From assembly GCF_963082655.1 (NCBI RefSeq), contig NC_081553.1, forward strand, positions 38,715,445 through 38,779,444: a stretch of DNA of 64,000 bases, read 5' to 3'. Position 1 is the first letter of the stretch. Every line of letters starts with the position of its first letter. The DNA comes from Stomoxys calcitrans. Its lineage: Eukaryota; Arthropoda; Insecta; Diptera; Muscidae. Of this stretch, positions 1,800-44,800 are shown piece by piece. The position numbers were made by a program, and so were the translations under genes. Under the pieces are notes generated by a model, which was given only the letters and a program-made list of their open reading frames with translations, made no database searches and was not told the origin of the DNA.

Positions 1800-2270
1800 T
1801 AAAAAATTAAATTTTTATATTGTTTCTTCCAAATCTTATGCAATATGAGTCAAATGGAGGCAAATATTGAGAGCAAAAATTGATTAGTCTTTTTTCATTG
1901 CCAATGTTGTTGCCAGCACCAGGAAGCGTTTAGACAGCTTAGTATTAGCTTGGAAAAAATATCAAATTAGATATTCTTTTTTCTTTCAAAGTCATTATGA
2001 CAGCTTAACCAAAAACTTTAAAAAATAAAAAAAAATTCGGTACAAAATGATAGAAAAAATATTCTTCTCCAATTCTTATATTGTTTCTTTCAAATCTTTT
2101 GCAATTTAAGTTAAATGGAGTCGTTTATTGAGAACAAAAATTGATTAGTCTTTCTTTCAGTACCAGGTAGCGGTTAGACAGCTTAGTAATATTAGCTTGG
2201 GAAAAATATCATATTAAATAAATGTTTGTTCTTCCAAAATCATTATGACAGCATAACCAAAAACTTATTT
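1800..2270 (+). repeat. Two-copy tandem duplication (about 260 bp) containing the 20-bp motif
   Basis: The words TATTGTTTCTTYCAAATCTT, TTTAGACAGCTTAGT and AGCTTGG occur in the same order twice, about 260 bp apart. Each copy carries the motif (1866-1885 and 2127-2146). The flanks are more diverged than the motif. Confidence 0.8.
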
Positions 2271-2326
2271 CCCATTGCCCTTAAAATTAAATTTTAAATA
2301 ATTTATTAATTTTTCCTTATATTTGT

Positions 2327-4105
2327 TTACCCTGCACCACTACTGTGGTACATAGTATTGTAGCTTAGTGCATTTGTTTGTAATACCCAAAAGAAAAATT
2401 CATACCCCATTGATAAGAATACGAATGGACTCAAAATCAATTTCTGATTCGATTTAGCTGAGGGCTACAGCTAACTGTCCATGTCAATTTCTGTTAAAAG
2501 TACAGTTCACAATTTCCATCCGATCGTCCTCAAATTTGGCACAGGCATCTTTTTTGGCCTAAAAACACAGTCTATTGAAATTGTAAGAAATCGGGTCTGC
2601 TTTGGATTTAGCTTCCATATAGACCGATTTGGACAAACATTGCAATAAACATCGTCATCACTCATTTGTTCACTCATTCTCACCACATTTTGCACAAGGG
2701 ATTCTTCTACGACTCTCGACATTGTAAGTGAGTTTCATAGGAATCAGTTCAGCTTTAGTTATAACTACTGTAAATATATATCACCCAATTTTCACTTCTA
2801 GAGCCTTGGCAAGCGAATTTATCAACCCGTCTTTTCAAAATTTTGCAGAACTCTTTTCTTTCCAAATTCCACAATACCTTTGGATTTGGCTCGAAATCGT
2901 ATTAGATTGGAATATCGGTCCCATATATGTGTTGGATGTAAATCGGTTCAAATTTGGATATAGCTCCCATATAAATGTATCACCCGATTTTCACTTCTAG
3001 AGCCTTTGAAAGCGCATTTATCAACCGGTCTTCTCATAATATTGCGCAACACTTTATTCTTCAATTACCACATTATCTCTGGTGTTTTTTCGAAATTGGT
3101 TTAGTTTGGAATATAGCTCCCATATATATGTTTGATCGAAATCGGTTCAAATTTATATATCGCTCCCATACAAATGTATTGCCCGATTTTCACTTCCAGA
3201 GCCTTTGTAAGCGCATTTATCAAGAGGTCTTCTCCAAATTTTGCAGAACGCTTTCCTTCCCAAATTCCACAATACCTTTGCATTTTGGTCGAAATTGGTT
3301 TAGATTGGAATAGGGCTTCCATGTATATGTTTGATGGAAATCGGTTCAAATTTAAATATAGCTCCAATATAAATGTATCGCCCGCTTTTCACTTCTAGAG
3401 CTTTTGCACTTTTTTCTCCAACTACCACATTATCTCTAGGGTTTGGTCGAAATCGGTTCAGTTTTGGTTATAGTTTCCATATGTATGTTCGTGCGATTTG
3501 GACAAAAATTGCAATAACATTGTCATTTTTAACCAATTCCCGAAATTTTGCACGAAGAAATCTTCTATGGCTCTCGACACTACTGATGGCTTTGATAGAA
3601 ATCGGTACAGATTTTAATATAGCTTCCATTTATATGTTCGTCCAATTTAAACTAATACTGCATTATTTTAATGTTTAGTTAAACAATCCTCCCGAATTTT
3701 AATACGAAGGTTTCTCCTATAACTCTTCTGATCACTGGTGAATTCAAAAAAAAGAAACCGTTCAGATTTAGATATAGGAACTAGAAGGCATCTTTCTTCT
3801 TTTGTTCCTGTGTTATCACAATGGACGAAAACGTCTATGTGAAACTGATGGCAGAGTGCCATTTAAACCTATCCTAAGATATAGCTCCCGACTTTAGCTT
3901 ATAGGGTCTTTGCAAAACACATTTATCAACCAATCTACTCAAAATTTTGCACAATCTTTCATTCTTTATCTTCAGCAATATTGAAGTATGGAGGTCGAAC
4001 TTTCAAATTCAAATAAATTTTAATTTCCAAGACTTAGTCTGCGTAACCAATGTAGAGTAGGTTAGAGTCGGCTTTGCCTGCATCTAGACCTTCATTGCTT
4101 GTTTT
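2327..4105 (+). mobile_element. Divergent non-autonomous rolling-circle-like repeat, subfamily C, copy 1
   Basis: It starts TACCCTGCACCACTACTGTGG and ends near GGCTTTGCC...TTCATTGCTTGTTTT, like the related copy at 14300-15124. The interior repeats blocks with GCTCCCATATA, GGTTCAAATTT and CGATTTTCACTTC. Equivalent points at 2963, 3162 and 3361, and at 3116 and 3315, are 199 bp apart. Several short open frames in both directions are by-products of the repeat. The GTCC microsatellite seen in related elements has mostly decayed here. Confidence 0.7.
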
Positions 4106-5270
4106 AATTTGGAAAATGTTCTAAATGTTTTCTTACCTTACCTCACCCCACCTTCTCACATTTCTGTCTTTCTTATATCATTTACAAAATTAATTTCTTT
4201 CTACCACCTTCACCATAATAATTTCTTAGACTTTATTTCTTCAATACTTTCTTGGTTCTGTTTTTTTTTTTTTTGTTTTTCAACTTACCTACGTTTAAAC
4301 TCTAGAAAATCCCACGAATATCTTTCCCTTTAACTTTGAATAGAGAGCATACAACAACGGCAATAAGTAAGCAACACATTTTCCTGAATAGGGAGTTCTT
4401 TCTGGCTGGACGCAGCAAGTCAAGAACTAATGAAAACTGAAAAACTCGTTAGGGTTTTAGATTTTATAATTTATACTTATATAAATTTTAACGTCACGCT
4501 ATTTAAAAGTGCATTTATGCTTAAGGAAAAAGTTTTTTTTTCTTTTTCTTATTTAGACTGATGGGGCTCACACTGTTTCTGTTTCTGTGTATGGTTGTAT
4601 GGCTGACTCTTTGTCTGTCCATACAACGAAATGTCCCAGTATCTTATGATTACAAAAAAAGAGTTGGGTTTGCCTGAATGCCCGGAATATTGCTTGCCTT
4701 GCCTGATTGCTTGGGCTTGCTGGCTGAGTGGCGGTATGGCAGTTTTAGCTTCTTGCCTCTTCTACTTATGGGCTTCATCATTATCACCAAAGACAAACCA
4801 AACTGCAACAACTACAACAACAGAAAGAGCACTACCAACTGTAGAAAATTAACAAAACCATTTGGCTTAAGATCTAATGACCTGATTACTTAATTGAACA
4901 GCTCCGACCAAAATGCAAGAAAAAAAAATTAACAAAAAACACACAAAGGCTATATGCCTCGAAATAACAGAACAAAAAAAAAGGAAAAAGAAAAAAGTGG
5001 CGGCGTTGGCGACGAAAACGCTTAATTTTAAATGAATGCATTTTCAACGCAGTTTCAACCAAAAACAAAAACTGAAAATCAAGCAAAAACTGTAAAGAAA
5101 ATGCGTTCAATGGCATTTTCAATAAATTATGGTCTGCTTGTTGTGATTATAGGCAAATGAATGGGTTGAAAAGCCTGGCAGTGCTGAAAATAAACAATTT
5201 TCTGAAAAAAAAAACACCCAATTTTACAGATACCAAAATATTCAAAGACCCTATTCTAAAAAGAGATTTT
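4106..5270. other. Unique intronic sequence
   Basis: AT-rich, with no recognised repeat or credible coding region. Short open frames at 4631-4893 lack any family resemblance and overlap in different frames. Confidence 0.5.
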
Positions 5271-5274
5271 TTTG

Positions 5275-6100
5275 TACGTCCCCTAAGCTTAAGAGATAGT
5301 TTGGGAACATGTGCTAGGAAAAAGGATTGATTGCTGATTAAGAAGGCTAAAGAGAACTCATAAATGTATATAAATACTTAAAAAAAGTTTAAACACAACT
5401 TTTTTTGAGAACTTTGAATTTTGGCTGGAGTTTAAATTTTATTGAGAACAAAAATTGATTGATTTTTGATAATAGTTCTTAAAATGATATGGAGATATGA
5501 AGTTTATGGTTAGCATTCCCTTATTCTGGATTTTTCCGCATTTTCTGATTATTTTATTGTGTCATTAGATTTTATGCTAGGAAAAAGGATTGATTGCTGA
5601 TTAAGGAGGCTAAAGATAACTCATAAATGTATATAAATACTTAAAAAAAGTTTCAACACAACTTCTTTCGAGAACTTTGAATATTGGCTGGAGTTTAAAT
5701 TTTATTGAGAACAAAAATTGATTGATTTTTGATAATAGTTCTTAAAATGATATGGAGATATGAAGTTTATGGTTAGCATTCCCCAATTCTGGATTTTCCG
5801 CATTTTCTGATTATTTTATTGTGTCACTAGATTTTATGTTAGGAAAAAGGATTGATTGCTGATTAAGGAGGCTAAAGAGAACTCATAAATGTATATAAAT
5901 ACTTAAAAAAAGTTTAAACACAACTTTTTTTGAGAACTTTGAATATTGGTGGGAGTTTAAATTTTATTGAGAACAAAAATTTATTAATTTTTGATAATAG
6001 TTCTTAAAATTATAAGGAGATATGAAGGTTATGGTTAGCATTCCCTTATTCTGGAGTTTTCCGCATTTTCTGATTATTTTATTGTGTCATTAGATTTTAA
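5275..6100 (+). repeat. Three-copy tandem array, period about 262 bp, with the 20-bp motif
   Basis: Three consecutive units share AGGAAAAAGGATTGATTGCT, a motif copy, GATAATAGTTCTTAAAAT and TTTCCGCATTTTCTGATTA. Motif copies are at 5441, 5704 and 5966, spaced 263 and 262 bp. Units are about 95% alike by eye, so the duplication is recent. Confidence 0.93.
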
Positions 6101-6203
6101 CATTGAGCTTAAACTTGAATCGGACTGCACTCCTTGATATGTGAGAAGTTTGCCCCTGTTCCTTATTGGTATGTTCATGGGCAAAATTTGTATTTGCATT
6201 AGA
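6097..6203 (+). repeat. 5'-truncated SINE tail
   Basis: It matches the 3' half of the tRNA-derived SINE: CATTGAGCTTAAACTTGAAT, then GTGAGAAGTTTGCCCC, then TGTTCATGGGCAAAATTTG. The tRNA-like head is absent. A motif copy follows 40 bp later at 6243. Confidence 0.8.
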
Positions 6204-6429
6204 TTTTTTTTCCTAGAATATATGAAAGTGATGAAAACATTTATTGAGAACAAAAGTTGATTAGTTTTTCGTTATGATTTTTAAAATGACAAGGAATAAG
6301 ATGTTTACATTTGGTTTTCTTATTTTCTTGATTTTTGTTTTTGCATTTTCAGTTTTTTATTTTGTCATTTGGTTTTTTCTAAAGCTATAAGTGAAGAAAA
6401 TATTTATTGAGAACAAAAATTGATTAGTT

Positions 6430-8080
6430 TGTTTTTTCAAACACAATGTGGCCAACATTAGTGGTTAGTATTGGATGGGCTTTAATGACCTGCCATTAGA
6501 GAGTAAAATATTTAGTACAAAATCTTTGGACTTTCGCATTGGTTAGCCGATCACTTTACAGGCCCCGATGTTTCTCAATAACCAGGCAAATAGTTTATGG
6601 TTTATGGGATTATTCAATAATCCAGAGTTCCACCTGGTTTCAGCTATTTTAAGTTGTATACCATCTGCCCACTCCTCAGCTTCAATGTTTAGTTATGCTG
6701 CCACAATAAGTCTTCAATGAAAGTTTCCAAGGTATTTATTATAAATATCTATGGAATCCGTTCTTCTACAAGTATCATCTAAAGTTCTCAATTTTCCAAA
6801 GCTCTCATCATAAATCTTACCCTGAGTAGTTTCAAGACTTCTTAACGACAATTTGTACAACATTTTCACACATTTAAAAACGCTATACTTCAGAATTTTA
6901 TTTTAATAGCTTTGCTCTTCCTTTCATTTCATACCTGTGTCTCACTTCAAAATTTAATGTACGTAGAGGGAGTCTATATCAAATTCAGTCATACTGAGTT
7001 TCTTGTTTAAAATAATCAAAGAAAAAAAAAAAGAGAAATATAAATATTTTTAATTTATACTGTCTTGTTTCAAAGAATTAATTTGCCATGTATTGTTATG
7101 AGAGATTTTTTTTATGTTGTTGCTGTTGTTGTGTATTGTATTGCTTATGATCTGGTTGCGGGGTTTGGTTCTACTGCGAAAAAAAATCAGAAAAAAAACT
7201 TCTGTGTTCCAGTAAGAAACCTTAATGACTTTGATTAAAAACAATCTTAAGAGTAAATGATTTCAGAAAATGAAATGGCACCCCCCGCCGAGTTAAAGCA
7301 TTTTAAATGTTGTTAAAAACACACACCGTCTCCAGCGACATACATATAGAAAGATACAAACATACAAAGAAATATAGAAAAAAAAAATAATCTTTCAATA
7401 TGGTATATGAAGAGTAGAGAATAAGTTACCTATAAGGAATTTTTATAAGCACAGCAAAAGTATGGATTGTATAATAACAATAATCATCGTCGTCATCATC
7501 ATCATCATCGCTGTCTTGCTCGTTGTGATAATAAAGCATATTAATATCAATGTACAAACTTGGCAAAAGTATTTTTATATATTTTTTTTTTTTTGTTTCT
7601 ACTAAATCGCCAAGTTTCAGTTAATTAAAAATCTGCAAGAAAAAAAGTCCCCTAAACCAGAACCGTTGTAGAAGTACAAAAAAAAATTTGCTAAAGTGAA
7701 TGTCGGCTCGACTTTGGGGAGCAGTCAAAATTAATGGTTAAAGATCTGCGGGAGAGGTGTTATTATTTTATTTGGAATCAATGATTTTTTCATTGGGTTT
7801 TTGTGCATAATGACAAATTTAGACGTTATTCCATCAAATGGATTAATTATACAATACAAAATTCGAAAAGGTCAATGTTCGATAATGAAATTTCAAATGC
7901 AACCTTGAAAAAAGCAATGCAGCTCTGGCAAAAAAGAAGAATGAAAGGGAGAAGGGGTTACCAAACTAAAGAGAAATATGTGAACAAAAATGAAAATTAA
8001 GTATATGTTAATGAAATAAAAAAAGAAGAAGAAAAAAAAACAAGGGAAAGTTTTCTTAAGAGTCTAACAAGTTGAAATTC
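6430..8080. other. Unique intronic sequence with an ATC microsatellite
   Basis: No repeat family or gene recognised. A short ATC-type microsatellite lies at 7484-7512. Runs of A occur at 7021-7034 and 7379-7388. Confidence 0.5.
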
Positions 8081-8109
8081 TAATGCATTATTGGCCTATA
8101 GGTCAGATT

Positions 8110-8412
8110 TGACAAATGTTGGCCATGAACATTCCACTAAGGAACAGGTGAAAACTTCTCACCTATCAATGAGTGCAATCCGATTCAAGTTTTAAGCTCA
8201 ATGATAAGTGACCTCCTTTTTATAGCCGAGTCCGAAAGGCATGCCGCAGTGCGACACCACTTTGGAGAGAAGCTTTAAATGGCATATTACCTCACAAATG
8301 TTGCCAGCATTAGGAGGAGAAAACCACCGCTGAAAAATTTTTCTGGTGGCCTCGCCAGGATTCGAACCCAGTCGTTCAGCATCATAGGCGGGCATGCTAA
8401 CCACTGCGCTAC
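8110..8412 (-). mobile_element. tRNA-derived SINE, full-length or nearly so
   Basis: On the minus strand, a tRNA-like A box (near 8402-8411) and a B box GGTTCGAATCC (8358-8368) are followed by the family body (GGTGGTTTTC, GTGAGGTA-like, GGACTCGGCTATAAAAAGG) and tail (TTCCTTAGTGGAATGTTCAT). Internal pol III promoter boxes are the hallmark of tRNA-SINEs. It lies opposite to the copy at 8557. Confidence 0.88.
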
Positions 8413-8556
8413 AAATGAAAAACTCCCTGCCGCTCTGAAGGACGGACTTTATATGCCATGATGCTGACGAAGACCCAGACCAACAGCGCAGCAATTTTTA
8501 GGATTTTGAATACTGGTTAAAATTTATTGAGAACAAAAATTGGTTGATTCTAGTGT

Positions 8557-8853
8557 AAATCTCAGAGGTTAACTTGCCTGCCTATGACCCTCAACGCCTG
8601 GACTCGAGTCCCGGCGGGAACATCAGCCATAAAAATATTTTTCGGCGGTGGTTATCCCCTCCTAATGCTGGCGACTTTTGTAACATACTATGACATGTAA
8701 AAACTTCTTCGTAAAGTGGTGTCGCACTGGTGGGGCATGCCGACGGGGCTGTAAAAAAGAAATCCCATATCATTGAGCTTAAACTTGAACCGGACAGCAA
8801 TCATTGAAATGTGGGAAGTTTGCCGCCATTCCCCAATGCAATGGGCAAATTTT
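8557..8853 (+). mobile_element. tRNA-derived SINE, diverged copy
   Basis: The head is degraded: AGAGGTTAACTTGCCTGCCTATGACCC, then a B-box-like GGACTCGAGTCCC. The body has GGCGGTGGTTATCCCC, CTAATGCTGGCGAC and GTGTCGCACTG, and the tail has CATTGAGCTTAAACTTGAA and GTGGGAAGTTTGCC. Together with the minus copy at 8110-8412 it makes an inverted pair about 145 bp apart. A motif copy follows at 8899. Confidence 0.82.
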
Positions 8854-8919
8854 TAAAAAATTTTAAATCATAAGGAGATATGAAGTTAAGATTTTTTTAT
8901 TGAGAACAAAAATTGATTC

Positions 8920-10410: not shown

Positions 10411-10514
10411 AGAAAATTTTATTGAGAACAAAAATTGATTCCATTTATATATCACATATATATTTTAGTTATAAATCAACTATTTTGTATTCAAACTTCT
10501 CTCATAGACCTATT

Positions 10515-10690
10515 TAAGCTTAACTCAATGACAAGGGTATCCTTTTTGTAGCCCCAAGGGAAATATGCTTCTTGGGATGGGTAAAGTGACCATCTGGCTC
10601 TCACAACTGTTGCCTGTAGGTGGATAATTTTGCCTAGAAATGATTTCATTGCTCTCACCTGGGCTTAAACCCAGAAGGGTTAAGGTGTCT
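10515..10690 (-). repeat. Highly diverged SINE fragment (tentative)
   Basis: AGCTTAACTCAATGACAAGGGTATCC resembles the reverse complement of the SINE tail. TTGCC...GGATAATTTTGCC...CTGGGCTTAAACCCAGAAG is in the expected order for body and B box. Divergence is high, so this is a weak call. Confidence 0.4.
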
Positions 10691-13775: not shown

Positions 13776-14299
13776 TTTGCAACTGGGCTTGTATTAGGGT
13801 GTTTCTTGTGCTGGAGGGCTATCTACCATCGAAACACAAGGTGGTGTAATATTTAAGCTTCTATATTTATTGAGAACAAAAATTGATTCCTTTTCATAAT
13901 TTTCGCACAAATTTAGTTTTTTAATGCTGTAAAATGGCAGGTCTGAAAATAAATATTGTTGAGTTGATTATAGTCCTTATATTTGCGAGAAAGTAGGCTA
14001 AAAGTTCCTATGTTGTATTCAGAATCCTATATGGGAGAAGTCCTAGGTGATTTTATATTTATTGAGAACAAAAATTGATTCATGAGATATGAAAGATTCA
14101 AATTGTGTACCATACAAACCCAGTTGCCCCACAAATAAAATTTATTGAGAACAAAAATTGATTCTTTTTCATATATTTGAGGAATCTCAGGTTACAATAT
14201 CATCAATACTCATTAAAGTTAATTGAGAACAAAACATCCATTCTTCTTCATACATGTTCGGATACTTAGGATCCAGATTCCTAGACAAGTTCGCCTAGT

Positions 14300-21659: not shown

Positions 21660-22735
21660 CATTATTTGCGACCTTGAAATAGTTATTGAGAACAAAAACT
21701 TATTCTTCTAAGATACCTGTAAATCAACCCTACCTCTTCTTAACCGCTTTTTTAACATGTATCCCATATAACACCTGGCTTTCCCAGCGCGAAGACTTAT
21801 CTACCGCATAAAGTTGTCTCTTTTTGGGCGTTGACATCTCTGGGGAACAAGCAGCCATTCCTCTTCTTCCTATAGATTTTCCTTCCTCCATGAACATCTC
21901 ATCTCTCATTATTTGCGACCTCGGAGTATTTATTGAGAATAAAAACTGATTCTTCTAAGATACCTGTAGATCAACCCTACCAAGATAGATATTCTTCTTA
22001 ACCGCTGTTTTTTAAGATGTATCTCATAATACACCTGGCTTTCCCAGCGCTAAGACTTACCTTACGTACAAAGTTGTCTCTCTTTGGGCGTTGATATCTC
22101 TGGGGAACAACCAGTCATTCCTCTACTTCCTATAGAATTAGGGGCACCAGATTTTCCTGCCCCCATGAACATCCATCTCTGATTATTTGCGACCTCGGAA
22201 TATTTATTGGGAACAAAAATTGATTCTTCGAAGATGCATGTAGATCAACCCTTCCAAGGTAGAGATTCTTCTTAACCGCTTTTCATAAGATGTATCTCAT
22301 AATACACCTGGCTTTTCCAGCGCTAAGACTTACCTAACGTACAAAGTTGTCTCTCTTTGGGCGTTGACATCTCTGGGAAACAACCAGTCATTCCTTTACT
22401 TCGTATAGAATTAAAACACCAGATTTTCCTCCCTCCATGAAAATCTCATCTCTCATTATTTGCGACCTCGGAATATTTATTGAGAACAAAAATTGGTTCT
22501 TCTAAGCTGCATGTAGATCAACCCTTCCAAGGTAGAGCTAAGACTTACCATTGTGTAAAGTTGTCTCTTTTTGGGCGTTGACATCTCTGGGGAACAAACA
22601 GTCCTACCCCTACTCCGTATAGTATTGGAGGTACCAGCTCTTCCCTCCTCCATGAACATCCTATGGAGGCACCGGCTCTTCCCCCCTCCATGAACATCCT
22701 ATGGTCGAGCAAGATTTTGAGCGCCATTCATAATT
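21660..22735 (+). repeat. Four-copy tandem array, period 247-274 bp, with the 20-bp motif
   Basis: Each unit has ATTTGCGACCT, a motif copy, GTAGATCAACCCT, ACACCTGGCTTTCCCAGCGC, AAAGTTGTCTCT and GGGCGTTGACATCTCTGGGG. Motif starts are 21685, 21932, 22206 and 22480, with spacings 247, 274 and 274. The last unit is shortened. A 47-bp sub-duplication (CTCTTCC...CATGAACATCCTATG) lies at about 22630-22700. Confidence 0.93.
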
Positions 22736-23530
22736 TGGTTAACTTTGTATTTCTTTTTCAGTTAGTGTTAGTTTGAGTTACTGTGTCATGCGCGCCATTC
22801 AGATTCGGCCTTAAAAAGGATGTCCCTTATCATTGAGTTTAAACTTTAAACGGACAGCCCTCTTTGCTAAGTGAGAAGTTAGCCCCTGTTCTTTAATGGT
22901 ATATTCATAGGCAAATGCAAATACCCACAATTAAGGTACTCGGGGAAGACTTCTCTGAAAGAGTGCTGTTCTAAGGATAGCCCTAAGTCAGTTTTTTTAA
23001 AATAAATTTATTGAGAACAAAAATTGATTCCATGTTCGTAAAACTAAGCAAAAATTTAGTTTAAATTTTTTTTTATATGGAGGCTTGAATCATCTTTGCT
23101 GACCTGTATGGCAAGCAGCTCTTCCCCCTTCCATGAACATCTCATGGTCGAGCAAGATTTTGAGCGCCATTCATAATTTGGTTAACTTGGTATTTCTCTT
23201 TCAGTTAGTGTGGGTTTTTGAGTTACTGTGTCATGCGCGCCGTTCAAACTCGCCTTTAAAAAGGAGGTCCCTAATCATTGAGCATAAACTTTAATCGGAC
23301 AGCACTCATTGCTATGTGAGAAGTTAGCCCCTGTTCTTTAATGGTATATACATAGGCAAAATGACATTACCATCAATTTAGGTACTCGGTGATGACTTCT
23401 CTTAAAGAGTGCTGTTCTAAGGATGGCTCTAAATATTTTTTTTTTATAAATTTATTGAGAACGAAAATTGATTCCATGTTCGAAGATCAAAGCAAAAAAT
23501 TTAGTTTAAATTTTTTAAGTGGAGGCTTAA
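22640..23530 (+). repeat. Two-copy 444-bp tandem duplication including SINE tail and motif
   Basis: GAGCAAGATTTTGAGCGCCA, the SINE tail (22806-22925 and 23247-23365), GAAAGAGTGCTGTTCTAAGG and the motif (23010 and 23454) repeat in order with a 444-bp offset. This shows the motif and the SINE tail being copied together as one unit. Confidence 0.9.
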
Positions 23531-29010: not shown

Positions 29011-29371
29011 AAAAAAAGTGCCAATATAACCTTCATCGATCTTGAGAGACCTGCCGAAAGTGGGAGTTAAAGTTTATATATTCGAAACATTTTCAGCCAG
29101 TGTTTTCGTAGTTAAGAGTCCAATCCGAAGAAGTTCCAGATATTCCTATCTGCTTCCCCAGTTTTTGGAATTCATACTAGAGATAATAGTATTGAACAAC
29201 CGCTTAAAATTTATGCCCCTCATAGAGACCAGAATTTTATTTGAAAGCGCAGGACTCAACCTACTAAAATTTATTGAGGACAAAAATTGATTCTTCTAGA
29301 AATAAAAATTCTTTTATCGAAAATCCTTGGCCTGCTGAAAGTGGGGGTCAAATGTTACTTTGTCGTTACTA

Positions 29372-29608
29372 TTGGGTTGCCCAAAAAGTAATTGCGGATT
29401 TTTTAAAAGAAAGTAAATGCATTTTTAATAAAACTTAGAATGAACTTTAATCAAATATACTTTTTTTACACTTTTTTTCTAAAGCAAGCTAAAAGTAACA
29501 GCTGATATCTGACAGAAGAAAGAATGCAATTACAGAGTCACAAGCTGTGAAAAAATTTGTCAACGCCGACTATATGAAAAATCCGCAATTACTTTTTGGG
29601 CAACCCTA
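29372..29608 (+). mobile_element. mariner-type MITE, 237 bp, flanked by TA
   Basis: The left end TTGGGTTGCCCAAAAAGTAA continues TTGCGGATTTTT. The right end is its inverse, AAAAATCCGCAATTACTTTT then TGGGCAACCCTA. TA dinucleotides flank both ends (29370-29371 and 29609-29610), as expected for Tc1/mariner TA target duplication. There is no transposase inside, so it is an internally deleted derivative. A truncated copy lies at 55238. Confidence 0.93.
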
Positions 29609-29754
29609 TAGTTTCCTTATATTGTTTTCGGAGTAAGAGCCCCAGTCCCGTAGAAGTCTCACACTTGCCGACCAAATTTTGCCGTTTTTGGCACCCATTC
29701 TAGGGAAAATAGTATGAAACAATCTTTCGAACTGGATTTCAGTCGTGGAGAGAC

Positions 29755-30072
29755 GAGAATTTACTTCGAACGCACTGTACTTAACCCACAAAAATTTATT
29801 GAGAACAAAAATTAATTCTTATAGAAAAATGTTTTAAACCCCTTTTCTCCCCCTATAACTTTGTAAAACCCAATTGGTTTGCTTACACTAAGAAGTTAAT
29901 AACCTTGGCTATTCAAAGGACTGGTTTACATTTAAAACTATTACCATTACAAAACTTAACACAAATTTAAATATGTTTATTTAAGAGATTTCCTTTATAG
30001 AACAGTCAAATAAATCTGTTATAAGGCTTCACTAAGTTTTGTGAAAAATGTCGCTACGATCCTACTTTTTTT
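29755..30072 (+). repeat. Unit 1 of a dispersed tandem block, interrupted by an insertion
   Basis: CGAACGCACTGTACTTAACC, the motif (29798), CTTTGTAAAACCCAATTGGT, AAGGCTTCACTAAGTTTT and GATCCTACTTTTTTT match units at 31905 and 32360. The unit resumes at 31758 (AACTTTAGGTAACCATTGC) after the 30073-31757 element. Confidence 0.9.
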
Positions 30073-31757
30073 ATACCCACCACCGAAGGATGGGGGTATA
30101 TTCATTTTGTCATTCCGTTTGCAACACATCGAAATATCCATTTCCGACCCTATAAAGTATATATATTCTTGATCAGCGTAAAAATCTAAGACGATCTAGA
30201 CATGTCCGTCCGTCTGTCCGTCTGTCCGTCTGTCTGTTGAAATCACGCTACAGTCTTTAAAAATAGAGATATTGAGCTGAAATTTTGCACAGATTCTTTT
30301 TTTGTCCATAAGCAGGTTAAGTTCGAAGATGGGCTATATCGGACTATATCTTGATATAGCCACCATATAGACCGATCCGCCGATTTAGGGTCTTAGGCCC
30401 ATAAAAGCCACATTTATTATCCGATTTTGCTGAAATTTGGGACAGTGAGTTGTGTTAAGACCTTCGACATTCTTTGTCAATTTGGCTCAGATCGGTCCAG
30501 ATTTGGATATAGCTGCCATATAGACCGATCCTCCGATTTAGGGTCTAAGGCCCATAAAAGCCACATTTATTATCCGATTTCGCTGAAATATGGGCAAGTG
30601 AGTTGTGTTAAGCCCTTCGACATTCTTCGTTAAATTGGCCCAGATCGGTTCAGATTTGGATATAGCTGCCATATAGACCGATCCTCCGGTTTAGGGTCTT
30701 AGGCCCACAAAAGCCACATTTATTATCCGATTTTGATGAAATTCGGGACAGTGAATTGTGTAAGGCCCATCGACATCCTTCGTAAATTTGGCTCAGATCG
30801 GTTCAGATTTGGATATAGCTGCAATATAGATCGATCCTCCGATTTATGGTGTTAGGCCCATAAAAGCCACATTTATTGTCGGATTTTGCTGAAATTTGGG
30901 TCAGTGAGTTGTGTTAGGCTCTTCGACATATTTCTTCAATTTGGCCCTGATCGGTTCAGATTTGGATATAGCTGCCATATGGACCGATTTCTTGATTTAT
31001 GGTTTTGGGCCCATAAAATTCTCATTTATTATCCGATGTCGCCGAAATTTGGGATAGTGTGTTAAGTTAAGCCCCTTGACATACTTCTGCAATATCGCAC
31101 AGATCGGTCCAGATTTGGATATAGCTGCCATATAGACCGATATCTAGGTTTTAGGTTTTGGGGCCATAAAAGACGCATTTATTGTCCGATGTCGCTGAAA
31201 TTTGAGACAGTGAGTTTGGCTAGGCTCTTCGACGTCCTTCTTCAATTTTGCCCAGATCGGTCCAGATTTGAATATAGCTTCCATATAAACCGATCTCTCG
31301 ATTTTAGGTTTGGGCCAATAAAAGAGGCATTTATTGTCCGATTTCGCCAAAATTTAGGACAGAGCTTTGTGTTAGGCTCTTCGACATTTTTATGCAACTT
31401 GGCCCAAATCGGTCCAGATTTGGATATAGCTGCCATGAAGACCGATATCTCGATTTAAAGTCTTGGCCCCATAAAAGGCGCATTTATAATCCGATTTCAC
31501 TGAAATTTGACACAGTGACTTATATTAGGATTTTCGACATCCGCGTCGTATATAGTTCAGATCGGTTTATTTTTAGATATAGCTAGTGTACTTATTAGTA
31601 TTTGGTCCAAATCGGAACATATTTTGATGAAACTGATATGGGACATAAGGTATGAAATTTTCACCGAATTTTGATGAAAGGTGATTTACATATATACCCG
31701 AGGTGGTGGGTATCCAAAGTTCGGCCCGGCCAAACTTAACGCCTTTTTACTTGTTTT
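30073..31757 (+). mobile_element. Non-autonomous rolling-circle-like repeat, subfamily B, full length with inferable empty site
   Basis: The 5' ATACCCACCACCGAAGGATG leads to CCTATAAAGTATATATATTC, a GTCCGTCTGTCC block, and about nine units around GGATATAGCTGCCATATAGA at about 153-bp spacing. The 3' end has GAGGTGGTGGGTATCC, TTCGGCCCGGCCAAAC and TTTTTACTTGTTTT. A duplicate of the host unit at 32216-32236 shows the unoccupied site (CCTAC, seven T, AAC), so the element inserted within T/A without a target duplication beyond the T run. Confidence 0.88.
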
Positions 31758-31794
31758 AACTTTAGGTAACCATTGCGGAACCTTTGTTCCACTA

Positions 31795-31902
31795 GCCGAA
31801 TATAGAATTGTTTTACAAGCGCCCAGATCCTCTGCCCTTCTTCTTCAACTTCTGGGGCCCAATTTCGCAATGTCTGTCATCACTTGGTCTTTCCAGAATT
31901 GA
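31795..31902 (-). pseudogene. LINE C-terminal fragment (degenerate)
   Basis: The minus strand reads FWKDQVMTDIAKLGPRS, then a stop, then RRRAEDLGACKTIL. This matches the pattern of the basic tail found at the end of many non-LTR retrotransposon reverse transcriptase proteins (RWxDQVxxDxxxLGxRxWRRxAxDRxxWxxI). It has an in-frame stop and no remaining RT or endonuclease domain. It recurs in the tandem units at 32270-32345 and 32690-32850. Confidence 0.6.
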
Positions 31903-32689
31903 CTTCGAACGCACTGTACTTAACCTACAAAAATTTATTGAGAACAAAAATTGATTATTTTAGAAAAATGTCTTCTATAGTTTAAACCCCCTTTTCTCCT
32001 CCTACAACTTTGTAAAACCCAATTGGTTTGCTTACACTAAGAAGTTAATAATCTTGGATGTTCAAAGAACTGGTTAACACCAAAAACTATTACAACGATA
32101 TTCATAAAACTTAATGTAGATTTAAATAGTTTTATTTGAGAGCTTTCCTTTATAGAATGGTCAAATAAACCTATTTTAAGGCTTCACTAAGTTTTCGGAA
32201 TAAGGCCGTTACGATCCTACTTTTTTTAACTTTAGGTAACCATTGCTGAAGCCGAATATGGTATTGTTTTACAATCGCCCAGATCTTCTGCCCTTCTTCT
32301 TCAACTTCTGGTGCCCAATTTCGCAATGTCTGTCATCACTTGGTCTCTCGAGAATTTACTTCGAACGCACTGTACTTAACCTACAAAAATTTATTGAGAA
32401 CAAAAATTGATTCTTTTAGAAAAATATATTCTTTAGTTTAAAACCCCTTTTCTCCCCCTACAACTTTGTAAAGCCCAATTGGTTTGCTTACACTAAGAAG
32501 TTAATAATCTTGGATGTTCAAAGAACTGGTTTACACCAGAAACTATTAAAATGATATTCACAAAACTTAATGCAGTTTTAAATAGGTTTGTTTGAGAGCT
32601 TTCATTTATAGAACAGTCAAATAAACCTATTTTAAGGCTTCACTAAGTTTTCGGAATAAGGCCGTTACGATCCTACTTGTTTTTAACTT

Positions 32690-36300: not shown

Positions 36301-38300
36301 GGAAAAGCTAAAGGAAAAAGGCTTTACAATTGTCATATGTATTAACACAAATTTTATTGAGATCAAAAATTGATTACAAGGTGTGAAAGGATAGTATCGA
36401 ATAACATAAAAATCGTGTACAAATTTATTGTACATTATTTATAAAAAGTTACATTTGTAGACAATTTTTTTAATATTCTTTTTTAATGAGTAAAAAATAT
36501 TTTAAATATTTTGTGAGATATTGTGTTTGTTTTTAAATTATTTAAATTTTATTGAGATCACAAATTGATTTTTAAATACTTGTTTTAAAGAAAAAAAAAC
36601 TTTTTTTATTTTTAAAAATTTTTTTAATTTTTTTTACCAAAAAACCTAACGCAAAAAATCAGAAGAAAAAAGAAGATGGATTAAAAAATGTTTTTTTTTT
36701 TAATTATTAAAAAATAATATTTATACTTTTAAAGATATTTTGTTTATTTTTATAATGCGAGCATATAAAAACAATATTGAAAATTTTATTCAACAATTGA
36801 CTTTTACAAATATTGCCATACATTTTGCATTGATTATGCTAAAGATTGTGTAAAAACAAATCTACCTCGCTTCTCGCATTGAATTTTCATTGAATTTGGC
36901 TACATGTGTAAACAACATGTACATATCGTTGTCGCTCATAAATTCCTGAGCAGCTTTCATTGATATCTCATTTAAAAGTCAAACCACCACCACCACCCAC
37001 CATTGTTGCCTTTATTGGCTGCAATGGGGCAAATTCCCTCTCCCAAACCCCATAAATATTTAATAAACTCATACTGTTCTATTAAAATGATTAAAAATTA
37101 AAACAAAAGCAAACACCTGCATCAGAAGCAGCAGCAAGAGCAATTCTGCACACTTTTTGTTGGCACTTCACTTGGCTACAAAATGAGACGAGGTACGACA
37201 TACCAACACTTGGGACTGGCTGCAAGCCACTAAATACCAAACACCAAAATCCCTTAGGAAAAGTCACATGAGTTGCTGGTAAAAAAGGAAGAAAAGCAGG
37301 CTCTTGCCGCCAACATGCCAACCAGCCAAACATCATGCATCAATGTGGTCTTCAGTCAGTTTACCTCGGCTCAGCTCAGTTCAGTTTTGATAAGGCACTT
37401 TTACTCTGTAAACTGTACCGTGCATACAACCCACCATCACCATCATCATCATCATCACTCCACTACCTTTGAGGCTTGTGAGGAGCTGAGAGCAGTGACT
37501 ACAAGTGTCTTTAGTCAGCATTTAAAGTTTATAAATAAATAATTTGCAACCTTTTTGTTTCGGTATAAAGTCCCAGAACCCCCCCTACAACAGTCCTTTC
37601 TTAAGACACTGGTGATGACTATAGCTGAGGACAACTGTAAGCATAGGCAGCTAGTGTTTTGAGGGGGGGAGGGCGCTGTAGAGAGCACCAAATAAACGTG
37701 ACTAAATTGTTAAAGATAACAAGATACAAATAATGGAAATGAAATTGAAACTCACCAAAGAACCAAATGGCACCACCGTAGACATTGTTGAAAGAGAAAG
37801 AGCCAGCCAGCCATTGGATTGGAAAACATATATAACAACCTAAAGCAATACATATCTAAACTTTGAAGTTCTTTTTGACGTGCAAAAGAAGTCTTAGACT
37901 TTTGTTGGCAGTTTTTGAAAAAAAAAAACTATTTTGTATCAAAAAGTTGATCACTTTATTGGTCTTTAGCTGCAAGGGAGACAAATAAATTGTTTCATGT
38001 TTTTGTATGCCTTTTAAAAGCCCAAGAGCTGATAGGAACACAAAAAAAATGGTCCCTTAAGATTTGTTTTTAAAAGGAGAACTGATCATTGGCGGCAACA
38101 GTTTTATTGAATGAATATGCCGATTAAAGTTCAAGTTCACGTTGTGGGCATAACAATTATTTTAATTCATAATATGATTATGGGGGAAGGGGGGGTAGGG
38201 AAAGAAAATATATCAAATAGTTGCTTTGCCTCTCCCCTCTCCCTTATGATCTATCTTTAATCATACATTTTTGTATCCATTTAACTGATTCTGAGTTTAT
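33300..38300. other. Long mostly unique intronic block
   Basis: It contains three motif copies (34335, 36356, 36551) and microsatellites: GT at 35099-35114, GTT at 35221-35235, CT at 35637-35650, CAT at 37436-37457. No gene is supported. Non-repetitive blocks like this are where conserved hth enhancers would be sought. Confidence 0.5.
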
Positions 38301-38459
38301 TTTATTGAGAACAAAAATTGATTCCTTTTTGATATTAGCAACAATAAAATAGTCTGTTGGGGAATAAAGCAAAGCATAGGTTCGCATTGACTTCCTTATA
38401 CTAGATAAGTAAACCCCCATCCTATGGTGGTAGATATAAAAAAAAGACAAAACTACAAA

Positions 38460-39830
38460 ATCTATTGCGAGCAAAAATCGAGTCTTCGTCCGAAAATATT
38501 ATTCTGGAATATATTATCCCGCGAGGAAGTCCTTACAAGCGATCATGGTGGAATACGCCAGCCCGATGGAAAGATCAAGTGGTGAAAGACATTTCGAAAT
38601 TTGGTGTCAGAGATTTTAGAAGAAGCTCAGAAGATCGAGATGCTTGGAACGCTTTCCTAAGTTTGGTTAATGGGAAAGATGTTCTGTCCTAGCCAATTAA
38701 AGTAAAGTAAGAAGGGAACAGGGAAAGGACATATCCTTTGAAGAGTATAAGGTAAGAGGCTACAAGTTGAGTTAAATGGAGAGAAATCCTATTCAGTTGC
38801 TGAGATCCTTTGCGTATTAAAATTCTTAACCTTTATTGAGAACAAAAATTGATTCTTCTTCCAAAAACTGTTTACCGATATTAATCTCCCATGGTACAAT
38901 AATGAGGTATCATCATTAGCACAACAACAAAAATCCACCCCCAATGATACTACCTTGAGTGGCAAATACCGTAAATTGAAATGTCAAAGTGGTTTTAGAA
39001 ATAAACTTTGTTTTACAACTTATCTTCTTCAATTGTGTTCTATATTTGTATTTTCATCATTACAACACAGTTTTGTTGCTTATGTGTGGAATATGAGAAC
39101 AAATAGATTTTAGAAAAAATCACAGCTGTGTCATCAAGCCTTTGACATATAGATTTAATGCAAAATCAAAACAAAAGTAAAAAAAAAATTGTACTCAGCT
39201 GTTCGCATGACGTCACTTTATCTGAAGAGTTCAATATTTTGTTTTTGGCTGCAAGCTGTAATTGACTTAAACTGTTTGTATTACGCTGTTGAATAATTTT
39301 TCAGTAGCTTATGTCAATAGCAACCTAAAAGTTAAGGAATTTCTTTGCGATACTGCGGGTATACAAATCTTACCCATGATCTTGTTCTTCGAGTTTTTCC
39401 GTCAGCTTTATTAAGTGAACTTTATTGAGAACACAAATTGATTGATTCTTTTGCACGCAAGGCAACCAAATAGGGGATAACTTCCCCAAAAATAAGCTGA
39501 TGAGTTAATTCTTCCTTGACAACAATTAGAGATCAACTATAGGAATCCTTGGTTATTAAAATTCTTAAAATTTTTAAGCACAAAAAATGAATGTTCTTTG
39601 ATGTTTACTCTGATTTTTTACCTCGAAAACTTGAAAAAAGTTCATTGAGAGAACAAATTGGGCCTTCGTCCAAAAATATTATTTCCGAATATATCTTTTG
39701 AAGAGCGTAAGATAAAGGCTGCTAGTGGAGGTAAATGATGTATGCGTTTCCTGAGAAATCCTCTTCAGTTGTTGTTGTAAAATTCTTAGCATTTGTTGAG
39801 AACAAAAACTGTTTACTGATCTTAAACTTC
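38460..39830 (+). repeat. Diverged duplication with the motif and a LINE relic
   Basis: Segments at 38463-38515 and 39645-39710 (CTTCGTCC, AAAATATTATT) and at 38735-38880 and 39690-39830 (CTTTTGAAGAG, AATCCT, TTCAGTTG, AAAATTCTTA, motif, CTGTTTAC) are alike in the same order. This indicates an old duplication of roughly 1 kb. Motif copies at 38463 and 39795 are degenerate; 38835 is intact. Confidence 0.65.
38523..38690 (+). pseudogene. Non-LTR retrotransposon C-terminal fragment
   Basis: Plus-strand translation includes RGSPYKRSWWNTPARWKDQV and then KDISKFGVRDFRRSSEDRDA followed by WNAFL, ending at a TAG at 38690. This is the tail pattern of many LINE polyproteins: a GRPxxRW-like start, DQV, LGVRxWRR and DRxAW. 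Only the last 55 or so residues remain, so it cannot function. Confidence 0.65.
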
Positions 39831-40004
39831 AAACTGTTAAATATTTTGTCTTTTGCTACAAGTGTATATTTTATTGATTAAGCAACTGAAAATGTTAAGA
39901 ATTTTTTTAAAATATTGTGGTTATAAAAATCTTACTAGGTAGTTCTAGTACTAGTTCTAATAGTTTAATTGAATGAAATTTATTGAGAACAAAAATTGAT
40001 TCCT

Positions 40005-42320
40005 GTTCCATGGAAGGCAACCCAAATAGGGGACAATTTCCACCAAAACCTCCTCCAGCCTTGATGTTTTCTTTTATATTTTTGTGTTTTTTTTTCTGAA
40101 TGACCACTTGACCAAAGTTCAAGTTCACTTCCTAGGCATTTCAATTATTTTAATTCATAATATGCTAGGAAAATTACTTAAATGCTTGCAATAGTTGTTT
40201 ATTTATCTGTCTATCTAAAATACTATTCGTTTCGATTTCATGACATGGCAGCTAAAATAGCTTCATAGGTATTCCACTGATGTCTGTTGTAATTTATTCT
40301 AATGCATTTTAATTTGAATATTTGTTTTAGTTTCACTTCAAGTCATATTCTTCACTCTTCTTCTTCTTCTTCTTCTTAGTAACTAATATGCCATGCTATT
40401 TTCATTCAGAGCAGCTTGCTCGATTAGTTGGTAATAATTGCTAGAAAACATGCAAAGATGATGATAAACGCAGCAATTAATATATAGAAATAATTTCAAT
40501 AATACTCCAATGAAAATTACTTACAACAAAGTTATCAATGTTGAAAAAAATGCTTCCCGGGCAAAAGCTTGGTATACATATATAATAATTGTAGCAGAAC
40601 AACATGTTACCTGATAAGTTCCTATTTACAAAGACAAAACCAAACCAAAAAACGCCACACTAAACGCTTTTGCTTTGATGTATTGAAGACCAAAAAAAGA
40701 ATGTAGGTACAACGAAACAAGTTGCCTGCCAGTCTGATTGGCTGGCTTAAGATGCAATTTGATAACTTAATTTATATTAATTGATAAGTTATTAATTAAA
40801 AGTCCAAAGGGGCAACAGAAGAAAGGCAGGTACCGACGACAACACTTCCACGTGTTGAGTGTTATATATAAAATTTCTATAACAAAAAACTATATCTTCT
40901 TGGAGTAAGAAAAAAACAACAAATATTTTTTCTCAAGGTAATTTGATAGGCTGCTGAAATCCTTTATTTGCAATGAAGCTTGAAAATTTTTCAAAAAAAA
41001 CCAAAGTCGGCCTTTTAAGGTTGCCAAAAGGCGGTACATAAACTTTTTTTTTTTTGGTTTGGGTGAAAGACTTAAAGTAGACTTTGTAACACTTTTTGAA
41101 AGGATTATACAAGGCATTCTTTTAGCACTTGCTGTGTTGGTGCTTATAAATTTTATTAAGCTTAACAGAAGGCCCCAGTATGTTTTAAAAAGCCGCCAAG
41201 CATATTAAATTACCTTGCTTGTGTTTTCACCAAAATCTAAAGAGCCTGAGTCTAAGGGAGTACACAAACAATCACCTTAACCTTATCTTTATGAATGAAA
41301 AACGGAATGGAATTTTTGCTCAGCTCAGCTGTCCCAGTAATCATTTTTTCCGCTTATGAAATCATGCATAACAGTTTGGGTTTTTTTTTTGAGTTTTAAC
41401 AATTTTTTTTTTGCATTCTTCACAAATCATTACAAGTCATAAAAAATCTATCATACTGCTAGACTACAACAGAGATATGTAAAGAAGGCAGTCTGAGTTT
41501 GCTTTGTTTTGCGCTCTATAAAAACTTTGGAGAGTGTGTTAAATGATCGTTAAAAATTCTAGTGGGGCGAATAATGGCAAACAACTCTTTATACTGCCTC
41601 AGTTTTTGAATTTTTGTTTTCTTTTACTTTCAATCACATCCCTGAATGGATCATAAGAAATTTGAAATGCGTAGCTTTATTAACGGGGAGTAATAATAAT
41701 TTAGAAATTTTTATGATGCGTTTTGGCTTTTGGCTTCCATATATAATCTATTTAATAGTGCCATTAATAAGCGTGAAGCATTAAATGATTGAATATGAAA
41801 GAAAGCTGCGGAAGATGTGGAGTTAGGAAAGAGTTTAAGGGCTTTGATTATAGTGATTATAATTGGAGTGTTTAGGTTTTGAAATTTATTGAGAACAAAA
41901 ATTGATTAATTTTTGTGAGCAGGAATGGAAAAATCTGAAAAAGAAAAAAAAAAAATGCAACATTAGTAAAAAGATCAAACAAAATACTAAAAATGAGTTT
42001 TGAGAATTTCTAGGTATTTTTAAACTTTATAGGTGAATACTTAAAAAAGGAATCCTAGCTTTTTAACAACCTTCTATGTATACCTGTATCATATTTTGAT
42101 GAATATTTATTTAATATTAGATATAATCTACATATAAGGAGATTCGTAAAAAAAAACTTCTCACACAAAATGATTCAAAAAAACATCACATAACTTTAAT
42201 TTCCCAATAGTTTGTACGTGACCTTTTTTAATATTGTTCATTGTCTTTCAAGTCGAGCTTAATGACCAAGCGAATGCAACATCCAAGGGAGAGATTGATA
42301 ACTGAGTATTGAAGAAAATA
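40005..42320. other. Unique intronic sequence
   Basis: One motif copy at 41888. A homeodomain-like AT-rich cluster (AATTGATAAGTTATTAATTA) lies at 40777-40800. No gene is supported. Confidence 0.5.
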
Positions 42321-43580
42321 AATTGCCAGTTCCTCAGACAAGGCAGGACACATGTCACCCCACTGGTGGACGCGTTTCGATAATTGGGTTTCATTATCTC
42401 ATCGCCACCATCGTGAACTATGTCCGTCCGTCTGACCGTCCTACAGTTCCGTTATATTTTGATATATTTAACTACAGCTCATATGATATTCTCCATCAAT
42501 GCAAACCGGTCCATACATATTTCGAAAAATCTTCCTGGTCTGTGGTTTCTGCGGTTTTCAATGAGAATGGCTCAGACTGCCATTATAAACTAACCTAACC
42601 TGGAATGATATTCTACACCTTGAATATTTTTGACTATTTTACTTCCACAGAGCTATCAAAATTCTATTTTTCAACCTAAAGCTAGCCTTTATTTAATTGT
42701 GATAAAATTAACCCCAAGTATTACATCAGATTATGGAGATTACACTGCTAATTTCTTCAATACTGTATATAAACAGCGCCATTGAATATTATTTCCTAAG
42801 ATTTTCTTAACCTCAAATCATTGTTGGCTAATTGTGTAAAGGCAATATTATAAAAAAGCCTAACTATTAAAATGATTTATGGGTTTATTGGCTTATTAGG
42901 GAAAGGAAACTTGATTTCCCCAAGTTCAGAAAAAAGGCTAATTGGTTAAACTGGATTGTTCTGAATCTTATCGATAGAATAACTTTTATGGAAGCTACAT
43001 CCGTTTATGAGGCGATTTAGACCATATTTACTAATACTTAATCGGTTGGTGCTCCAAACACATCATTTGTATAAAATTTCAACTGGAATGCCTTATTTTT
43101 GGTTGAAAAGATTGGTAGTTTTAAACCTCCAAAATAAACCTCTAAAAAACAGTGTAGGGGTGCTGTACTCTTAACATATTCTTTAAACCTCTTACATTCT
43201 ATGTTGGTTGCAGTTTGTACAAACTTTCGGTTGCCTAGCCTTAAATTAGGTTGAATAAGTCAGTATGGCATTTAAACCATTCCATGTCTTGCATTCGCAT
43301 CCCTGAACTCGATTTGTTGCGGGCTCTAACTATACTCAAGGAAACTTTAAAAGACTATCTCCGGAATTCTGTCCCCTCACATATTCCTAAATCCTCTTAC
43401 ATTCAATTCCCTGGAGTTGGTTTTAGATTGGCATTACGTTAGTTGCCTAGCAAAAAATTGGGCATTCGCAAGGGGAGTGTTCCATTGTCTTGCCGTTGTC
43501 TGCATTTCCTGCACTCGCTGGTGCGCCGATAGGTTATACATATCTCCTTCATACAATCACTCTTAATACCCTCCTCGCAG
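42320..43580. other. Intronic sequence with a possible transposon relic
   Basis: At about 42327-42600, CTATGTCCGTCCGTCTGACC and a terminal AAACTAACCTAACCTGG look transposon-like, but I cannot assign a family. The remainder shows no recognised feature. Confidence 0.35.
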
Positions 43581-43585
43581 AATCA

Positions 43586-43832
43586 GAAAACAAGTTTCAG
43601 AGGTGGTTTTCCCTTCGTAATGGTGGCGAAATTTTGCGAGGTACTATGCATAGAAGCCATGTTAAAACTTCTTCTTAAAGATGTTTCGCTTTGCGACACG
43701 CCGTTCTGACTCTGCTATAATAAGGAGATCCCTTATAATTGGACTTGAACTTGATTCGGACAGCACTTATTGATATGTGAGAAGTTTTCCCCTGTTCCTT
43801 AATGGAATGTTTATGGGCAAATTTGCATTTTA
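43586..43832 (+). repeat. 5'-truncated SINE (body and tail)
   Basis: CAGAGGTGGTTTTCCCTTCG, GCGAGGTACTATGC, GCGACACGCCGTTCTGACTC, GATATGTGAGAAGTTTTCCC and TTTATGGGCAAATTTGCA follow the SINE order. The tRNA head is missing. Confidence 0.85.
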
Positions 43833-43926
43833 TTTGCTTGCTAGGAAAGGACGGACTGATGAAATGATCCGACATGGCAACATTGACTAGACGTTCATCC
43901 TACAGAGGACATTTGGTTCCCTTCCC

Positions 43927-44122
43927 CTAACAGGAATATTAGCTAGTCCCTTATGAAATTTATCGTACTTGCTACAGACGGACGGACGTACTGACTTGAT
44001 AACATCAACTCAGTATTTAGTACCGCCATAAAGTACTGAGTTGATGTAGCCAAGTCAGCACGTCCGTTCGTCTGTAGCAAATACGAAAACTTTCAAATGG
44101 GGCTAGCTTATATTCCTGTTAG
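43927..44122. repeat. Fold-back palindrome with arms of about 91 bp
   Basis: The left arm (43927-44017) starts CTAACAGGAATATTAGCTAG and ends CATCAACTCAGTATTT. The right arm (44031-44122) is its inverse, with AAGTACTGAGTTGATG and GCTTATATTCCTGTTAG. Arms are roughly 85-90% identical by eye, separated by about 13 bases. It contains CAGACGGACGGACGTACTGA. No coding content. Confidence 0.88.
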
Positions 44123-44159
44123 CAATGGAATGACAAAGTTCTTAGACGCCTCAGCTAAA

Positions 44160-44800
44160 ATCGGAGGGTACAAAGATCAAACTATCAATCGGAGGGTACA
44201 AAAATCAAACTAACAACAATTGAATTTTATTGAGAACAAAAACTGATTCCTTCGATACCTTCCCCTTGGAAGGTTCATATGCTAGCCTTACTCTTATAAA
44301 AGTGAACATGCTTACTATATACCGATGGATAGGGTTACATCGTCTATGGAGTTAGATCCTCAAATAAACGGAATGATTATGTTCTTAGCCCCCTCAGTCA
44401 AAAGCGGAGGGGTCTAAAAACAATTGAAATTCATTGAGAACAAAAACTGATGCTTTTGGTCACTTCCCCTTAGAAGATTGTTAGCTAGCTTTAATCGTCT
44501 AAAATTAAGCCTGTGCTATGTATAGCTGGACATGGTTATATGGACTCAGAATTTCATGGAGTAAGGTCCTTAAATAATGTTTTTATACCTTGGAGGCAAA
44601 GGCGCAAGATATTAAAACCTAAACTGTTATAGATTATCAAACAATTAAAATTTATTGAGAACAAAAACTGATTCCTTTTGGTGGTAAAACAATGCCGTAG
44701 AACATTTTTCGACAAAAAATTTATTGAGAACAAAAATTGATTCTTTTTCCTTGTCATTTTTCGACAAAAAATTTATTGAGAACAAAACTTGATTCTTTTT
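44160..44800 (+). repeat. Motif-bearing tandem array (about 204-221 bp units, then 52 bp units)
   Basis: Blocks of GGAGGG(G)T...CAATTGAAATT, motif and CTTCCCCTT repeat with motif starts at 44229, 44433 and 44654. The array then collapses into a 52-bp repeat (TTTTTCGACAAAAAATT plus motif) with starts at 44723 and 44775. A 28-bp duplication of ATCGGAGGGTACAAA lies at 44160-44215. Confidence 0.88.

Follow-up and report, generated by a model that had tools for sequence, protein, structure and literature searches.

A 23-bp block arrayed on the sense strand of an hth intron and dispersed to other loci of Stomoxys calcitrans: a candidate cis element acting in RNA

The stretch of DNA analysed here, referred to as the window, covers 64,000 nucleotides of Stomoxys calcitrans (NCBI RefSeq assembly GCF_963082655.1, contig NC_081553.1, positions 38,715,445 to 38,779,444 of the forward strand), and contains a coding exon of hth together with an intronic array of a short motif. 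The exon has splice-site-like edges (Table 1), and we take it to correspond to residues 243-283 of fly Hth with 95% identity; since it lies on the + strand, the sense strand of the array is + as well. A scan of the window returned 47 copies of ATTGAGAACAAAAATTGATT with three or fewer mismatches at positions 1866-44794, compared to 0.13 expected by chance from shuffles; 19 of the copies are exact, while 17, 9 and 2 carry one, two and three mismatches, respectively. All 47 are on the + strand, and the minus strand has no match with four or fewer mismatches and two with five, which bears out the claim of an earlier note on this DNA that the motif runs in one direction only. The figure of about 49 copies given there is reached if three further + sites with four mismatches (28449, 38464 and 57813) are brought in, the last of them lying outside the array within a SINE-like repeat (SINE, short interspersed element). 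Among the 14-mers of moderate complexity surveyed across the window, those of the motif form the family that is most widely dispersed, and the array ends about 10 kb upstream of the hth exon. The CENP-B box, a conserved box within the fast-changing alpha satellite repeats, is similar in being kept within changing DNA; the fly motif is instead dispersed at genes with a strand bias, and with spacings of 52-5245 bp the window array does not form the regular tandem monomers of a CENP-B-like satellite.

The conserved block is 23-24 bp long and consists of TTT, the 20-mer and usually C (columns -3 to +20). It has softer edges, A-rich at -7 to -4 and T-rich at +22 to +25, beyond which the columns are at noise level; overall the block measures 23-33 bp. 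The information content is 32.7 bits over 24 columns, calculated from 31 hand-picked representative copies with some distant relatives still among them. Variants with a 1-bp insertion or deletion were not found at any new site in the window. The consensus in hth and elsewhere is equal except at position +20, where C is commonest in hth (30/47) and G elsewhere (22/41); a stronger constraint towards the 5' end is indicated for those 17 copies elsewhere that are not exact (P 0.0009), but not for the window (P 0.45). The flanks, by comparison, are mostly unrelated: those of the 47 window copies fall into 23, 25, 26 or 30 groups at four score cut-offs, and similar flanks are seen in 5 of 741 cross-locus pairs and in 12 of 1927 pairs of a window copy with one elsewhere. 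With columns beyond -7/+25 at noise level and this number of flank groups, no longer shared element was found around the copies, nor did one emerge among the matches listed in an empty-site search. The common sequence beyond the core that the end of a longer transposable element would have was thus not seen, and the possibility, considered in the earlier note, that every copy might end a longer known transposon is not supported.

The motif is not confined to hth. A search of the genome (1,070,917,216 bp, both strands) for the exact 20-mer gave at least 43 copies, 31 on + and 12 on -, with 0 for the reversed control. Nineteen are those of the window; the other 24 are found at 16 further loci, 12 on + and 12 on -. 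The earlier note had reasoned that equal numbers on both strands would remove the special link of the motif to hth as well as to strand. The first is indeed removed by these copies, while the second is not, as multi-copy loci are uniform and the motif follows the sense strand of most host genes (see below). To cover the 16 loci, 25 pieces of approximately 10 kb (249 kb in total) were fetched; these hold 43 copies with three or fewer mismatches, 24 of them exact, and the 41 copies that remain without two in L033 were used for the consensus and flank-context counts and represent 32 flank-independent contexts. In the stretches seen, each of the eight multi-copy loci keeps to a single strand (3+, 5-, 2-, 10+, 2+, 2+, 6- and 3+, the 6- locus rising to 8- with L033 counted). 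For the five loci with 3, 3, 7, 5 and 3 contexts, uniformity by chance has a probability of 1.5e-5, assuming that contexts are independent and setting older common ancestry aside. The second largest cluster seen, at C3:184.32-184.34 Mb (L019-L021), has 10 copies, all on +, and no host gene was found for it in the fetched DNA; a coding-like open reading frame (ORF) at L033 2035-2391 (-) has the orientation of the eight copies in its cluster.

Host genes could be assigned at nine of the 16 loci. Together with hth, the motif is in sense orientation in 9 of 10 assigned genes (one-sided P 0.011), albeit in a small sample. Of the 11 pieces that contain a coding exon, 9 have their nearest copy within 1 kb of one, compared to 4.9 for random points (P 0.01). 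Copies lie in introns (of hth, an mRpS9-like gene, an astacin-like gene and an unnamed gene), probably in the 3' untranslated region (3'UTR) of an SDR gene, past the stop of a GMC gene, and near exons. In the mRpS9-like gene (L016; Ribosomal_S9 exon, E 3.5e-10), the motif is within an intron of 116 nt, its end being separated from the 3' splice site by 39 nt, and removal of this intron leaves a single open frame across the exons. In L025 it ends 30 nt before an exon of the astacin-like gene; the Pfam match of these exons (E 0.0097) is below its cut-off, and by eye we read HEILHALGFYH, which we take to resemble the astacin zinc-site pattern. L026/L027 contain open exons on + that are 507 and 225 aa long and have no Pfam match; the first ends at GTAAGT, and motifs are 284, 480 and 351 bp away. 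At the SDR gene (L022; PF00106, E 1.6e-39) the stop at 4823, by our reading of the last exon, is followed by motifs at 4892 and 4942 and by AATAAA at 5015, and the two motifs are probably part of the 3'UTR. For the GMC oxidoreductase (L017/L018), the coding end is followed after 149 and 378 nt by motifs that likely fall in a putative 3'UTR, although neither AATAAA nor ATTAAA was found on this strand in the 1.5 kb fetched; a further three copies are located 2.4-4.2 kb ahead of its N-terminal exon. Other copies are 0.8 and 3.4 kb from an ASC channel exon (L014; E 2.7e-14), 0.94 kb before an exon of an MFS transporter (L023), and 4.3 kb from an ORF whose matches, MFS-like and Salp15, each fall below cut-off (L012).

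The two copies ending 39 and 30 nt before an exon could be read as part of a splicing signal, either a branch-point region or a recursive splice site; the motif contains TTGATT, which we take to resemble a branch point. Downstream of the hth copies TAG (1.58 vs 1.25) and T-runs (2.35 vs 1.16) are somewhat raised, as is [CT]AGGT upstream (0.23 vs 0.12), all as counts alone. However, AGGT and CAG are not raised downstream and GTAAG is absent there, and many copies either are separated from exons by hundreds of bases or belong to a probable 3'UTR; we therefore consider a role in splicing very improbable. The information content, the sharp edges with one A-rich and one T-rich side, and the oriented clusters would be in keeping with a DNA-level site for a protein with a long motif, e.g. 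a zinc-finger array, that acts in a direction-dependent manner relative to transcription, in which case the clusters would be architectural or regulatory arrays. Such a site is unlikely in our judgement, though it carries appreciable weight: most DNA sites would not be expected to keep to the sense direction within introns and a probable 3'UTR, and copies are found close to exons and within a short intron. The fly consensus is presumably unlike that of CTCF. Firre and Dxz4 are known as loci with many CTCF sites (PMC4539712); compared to these, the fly motif differs in occurring at several genes, with its strand following the host gene.

The presence of the same block at unlinked loci, in mostly unrelated flanks, could also result from a very short element spread by an insertion process of unspecified nature, with antisense copies lost from genes through their poly(A) signal, as the antisense strand of the motif retains AATAAA in 75 of 88 copies. 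The sole antisense copy in an assigned gene is found at a 3' end, that of the HAGH-like gene, and intronic L1 copies are described in PMC10030826 as able to terminate transcription early via their own poly(A) signal. On the other hand, there is no convincing empty site among the matches listed, which are self, motif-bearing or low-complexity, and no longer common element; diverged duplicates already hold the motif in register, and the clusters are strand-uniform despite their unrelated flanks. We find spread by insertion rather unlikely. At L010 4300-4900, the AATAAA of the antisense copy could act as the poly(A) signal of the HAGH-like gene.

Within hth, direct local duplication multiplied the motif and is the source of some of the 47 copies. 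When motifs were masked, those low-copy self-alignments in which each side lay no more than 100 bp from a copy numbered 16 direct and none inverted, as the earlier note's idea of local sense-strand duplication would have it; for the whole array region they are 37 direct and 5 inverted, and all self-matches together are 150 direct and 34 inverted. As the local duplications are direct, strand uniformity within hth needs no special cause. Dispersal among unlinked genes, on the other hand, is not explained in this way. The duplicated groups are listed in Table 1; the split sharing of flanks among copies 6243, 6406 and 8899 means that homology stops at the motif edge, as it does between 5441 and 6243, which is at most suggestive.

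Table 1. Positions of the motif array, its duplicated groups and the hth exon in the window
Feature	Position	Strand	Remarks
Array of 47 sense core copies, 23-bp block TTTATTGAGAACAAAAATTGATT	1866..44794	+	hth intron
Copies 5441, 5704, 5966	5441..5985	+	263-bp tandem duplication; flank divergence 3-5%
Copies 6243, 6406, 8899	6243..8918	+	left flank common with one copy, right flank with another
Copies 13869, 14061, 14144	13869..14163	+	all exact, within 300 bp
Copies 21685, 21932, 22206, 22479	21685..22498	+	direct duplication family, ~273 bp
Copies 23010, 23454	23010..23473	+	445-bp direct duplication
Copies 29273, 29798, 31937, 32393	29273..32412	+	direct duplications of differing age, motif retained
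Decayed copy, 4 mismatches	38464..38483	+	paralogue at 39644
Copies 39424, 39982	39424..40001	+	flank divergence 16-27% by alignment; core differs 2/24
Final five copies 44229, 44433, 44654, 44723, 44775	44229..44794	+	
hth coding exon	54966..55088	+	AG precedes, GTAAGT follows; splice-site-like edges

While the flanks of duplicates diverge, the core is largely kept. When paralogous sites were located by their flanks alone, the motif was present wherever the sites were judged in register; the other rows of this search were out-of-register blocks, an indel beside a known copy, transposon ends and low-complexity matches. Core difference was 7.9, 10.1 and 9.7% at a flank divergence of 6, 15 and 24% (10, 7 and 6 pairs), and 10.2% across the 1058 remaining window pairs. 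Ten diverged pairs (flank divergence 13-29%, chosen by us, two from one family) show 23 core differences, compared to 44.9 expected from their flanks (P 2.5e-4), where the members of each pair were both selected at three or fewer mismatches, the decayed 38464/39644 pair was left out, and the local alignments used favour conserved flanks. For all 23 pairs, some of them overlapping, the numbers are 50 and 76. A cruder comparison of 35 pairs (102 vs 137.5 expected) had matched some of them via SINE fragments or neighbouring copies, and was replaced. Sites with 4-6 mismatches in the array region number 20 on + and 16 on -, so that few decayed copies remain. The description of the motif as a box kept in changing DNA thus holds, and its conservation against diverging flanks needs a cause that duplication does not supply.

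A neutral alternative would be that the array is the outcome of local direct duplication together with recombination or conversion at the motif, which would act as a recombination seed. The exclusively direct alignments near copies and the homologies that stop at motif edges would be accounted for, but the copies at 16 unlinked loci would not, and the decay tail is small, with 47 sites at 0-3 mismatches compared to the 20 and 16 above. We regard it as improbable.

Several other features were noted in the window. An AAAAT repeat (x141) at 1043-1749 is just upstream of the first motif copy, and an inverted self-repeat of 196 bp with 82.7% identity (43927-44122) adjoins the last motif cluster. 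Members of a 153-bp tandem repeat family (GATATAGCTGCCATATA...) occur at several places between 18557 and 62806 on both strands, and dense tandem arrays of TCAAGTCCTCAAACTTCGGAC-like and TATGGACTTGTCCTCAAGT units are found at 51343-53125. Of seven independent + fragments that we take to be SINE-like (two local duplicates dropped), five, at 6136, 8806, 13726, 15404 and 22866, have a motif copy no more than 150 bp downstream of them (P 0.0016, post hoc); co-duplication of these fragments with the motif is not supported, as identity among motif-adjacent fragments is 78%, compared to 79% to others. Searches of the window with Rfam (at gathering score) and for tRNAs gave no matches, nor did a phage BLAST with the hth exon; viral contigs searched with the 20-mer and GTDB contigs searched with a 23-base variant had no exact match.

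Based on the sense bias, the several sites per locus, the fixed length, the placement in introns and a probable 3'UTR, and the near-complete constraint over 23 nt, the reading we tentatively favour, at somewhat less than an even chance, is that the 23-bp block is a cis element acting in RNA. Among the roles proposed in the earlier note, an RNA element would fit best from the sequence, while a protein site is possible and a recombination seed weak. A sequence-specific trans factor would recognise almost all of these 23 nt in the transcript, and several sites per transcript might raise the response. As the first choice, the reader could be a small RNA, i.e. a Piwi-interacting RNA (piRNA), small interfering RNA (siRNA) or microRNA (miRNA), which we prefer because of the length of the motif and its ~33 bits; an RNA-binding protein would be the alternative. 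The hth intron, as the largest cluster seen, may be target, sponge or source. Going further, we speculate that the 23-nt word is a common address of a transcript set that includes hth and the mRpS9-like, SDR, GMC and astacin-like genes, among others. Either an antisense small RNA would read the word, or the word would itself give rise to a sense small RNA that starts with 5' U. The hth intron with its 47 copies would then serve as the hub, either source or sponge, and a perfectly complementary guide could come from the antisense copy at the HAGH-like 3' end. Taken jointly, these steps seem to us quite unlikely to hold in full.

Among the closest published systems that we compared is that of the mosquito snetDNAs (small-RNA-network DNA; Jensen et al. 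2020, PMC7349650). In these, a short word is common to unrelated mRNAs and long non-coding RNAs and can form clusters, as in Culex with 193 copies in 10.5 kb; the first base of the responder piRNA is a conserved T, and direction matters, since a trigger piRNA has to run antisense to its transcript. The fly motif is in or beside several unrelated genes, their transcripts being inferred from exons, and a small RNA reading it would follow a logic like that of the snetDNAs. It differs from the snetDNAs, which are ~40 nt long and piRNA-supported, in its 23-33 bp block, and two published snetDNA central motifs do not match the fly consensus, with 8-9 edits at the best fit. The tapiR locus of culicine mosquitoes is, as described in PMC9962485, a satellite-repeat locus giving an abundant repeat-derived small RNA that acts in trans, whereas the fly copies are scattered along 43 kb and at 16 further loci. 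Around hth itself, ultraconserved non-coding elements are reported, also in Musca (PMC7466983, PMC4989106); in the sections available these are single blocks compared between species, unlike the repeated fly motif, and no repeated motif is described in them. Literature searched on hth introns and ultraconserved elements contained no such motif, and four motif strings of 17 or 20 bases, on both strands, had no match in the literature text searched, supplements being outside this search.

A number of observations weigh against an element acting in RNA. Six of the 16 non-hth loci, L015 among them, are without an assigned gene and one (L013) is doubtful; with doubtful loci counted against, sense orientation drops to 9/11 (P 0.033), or to 9/12 with L015 included (P 0.073). 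At L013, + ORFs without a Pfam match face a motif on -, and at L015 the motif is on - while an ORF with DUF4780, which we take to be transposon-linked, is on +; each would count against if these ORFs are the host genes. In L025 there is a + ORF on the opposite strand ~1 kb off, and in L022 a thiolase-like gene on - ends 385 bp off, so that its 3' end might also overlap the motifs; in both cases the host was assigned by position. Co-transcription of motif and gene is assumed for the MFS-like, ASC and MFS loci (L012, L014 and L023). In the HAGH-like gene (L010; E 1.5e-28) the motif is antisense and follows the coding end at a distance of 443 bp, farther out than the first AATAAA, and the sense bias as such could stem from loss of antisense copies, which would place AATAAA in the transcript. 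Regarding conservation, the box has decayed in both members of the 38464/39644 lineage, a counterexample; in the ten youngest pairs the core, with 19 differences compared to 15 expected, changes about as fast as the flank, so that single mismatches seem to be tolerated; and the selection of pair members described above has the same bearing. Core accessibility is ordinary, and no pre-miRNA-like hairpin was seen among the best 8 of 88 copies folded in both orientations, which speaks against a miRNA gene. Stems pairing both flanks of the motif are weak (P 0.035). Lastly, the best complementary target on the + strand of the window reaches -15.8 kcal/mol, compared to -16.0 to -19.7 for six shuffled queries.

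With 23 nt, ~33 bits and many copies, mostly sense at unlinked genes, the block is longer than ordinary protein-binding sites. It provides an example of how the intron of a developmental gene can become a 43-kb array of such sites through direct duplication. If the block is indeed an RNA address, it would name a set of genes and would predict its reader by complementarity.

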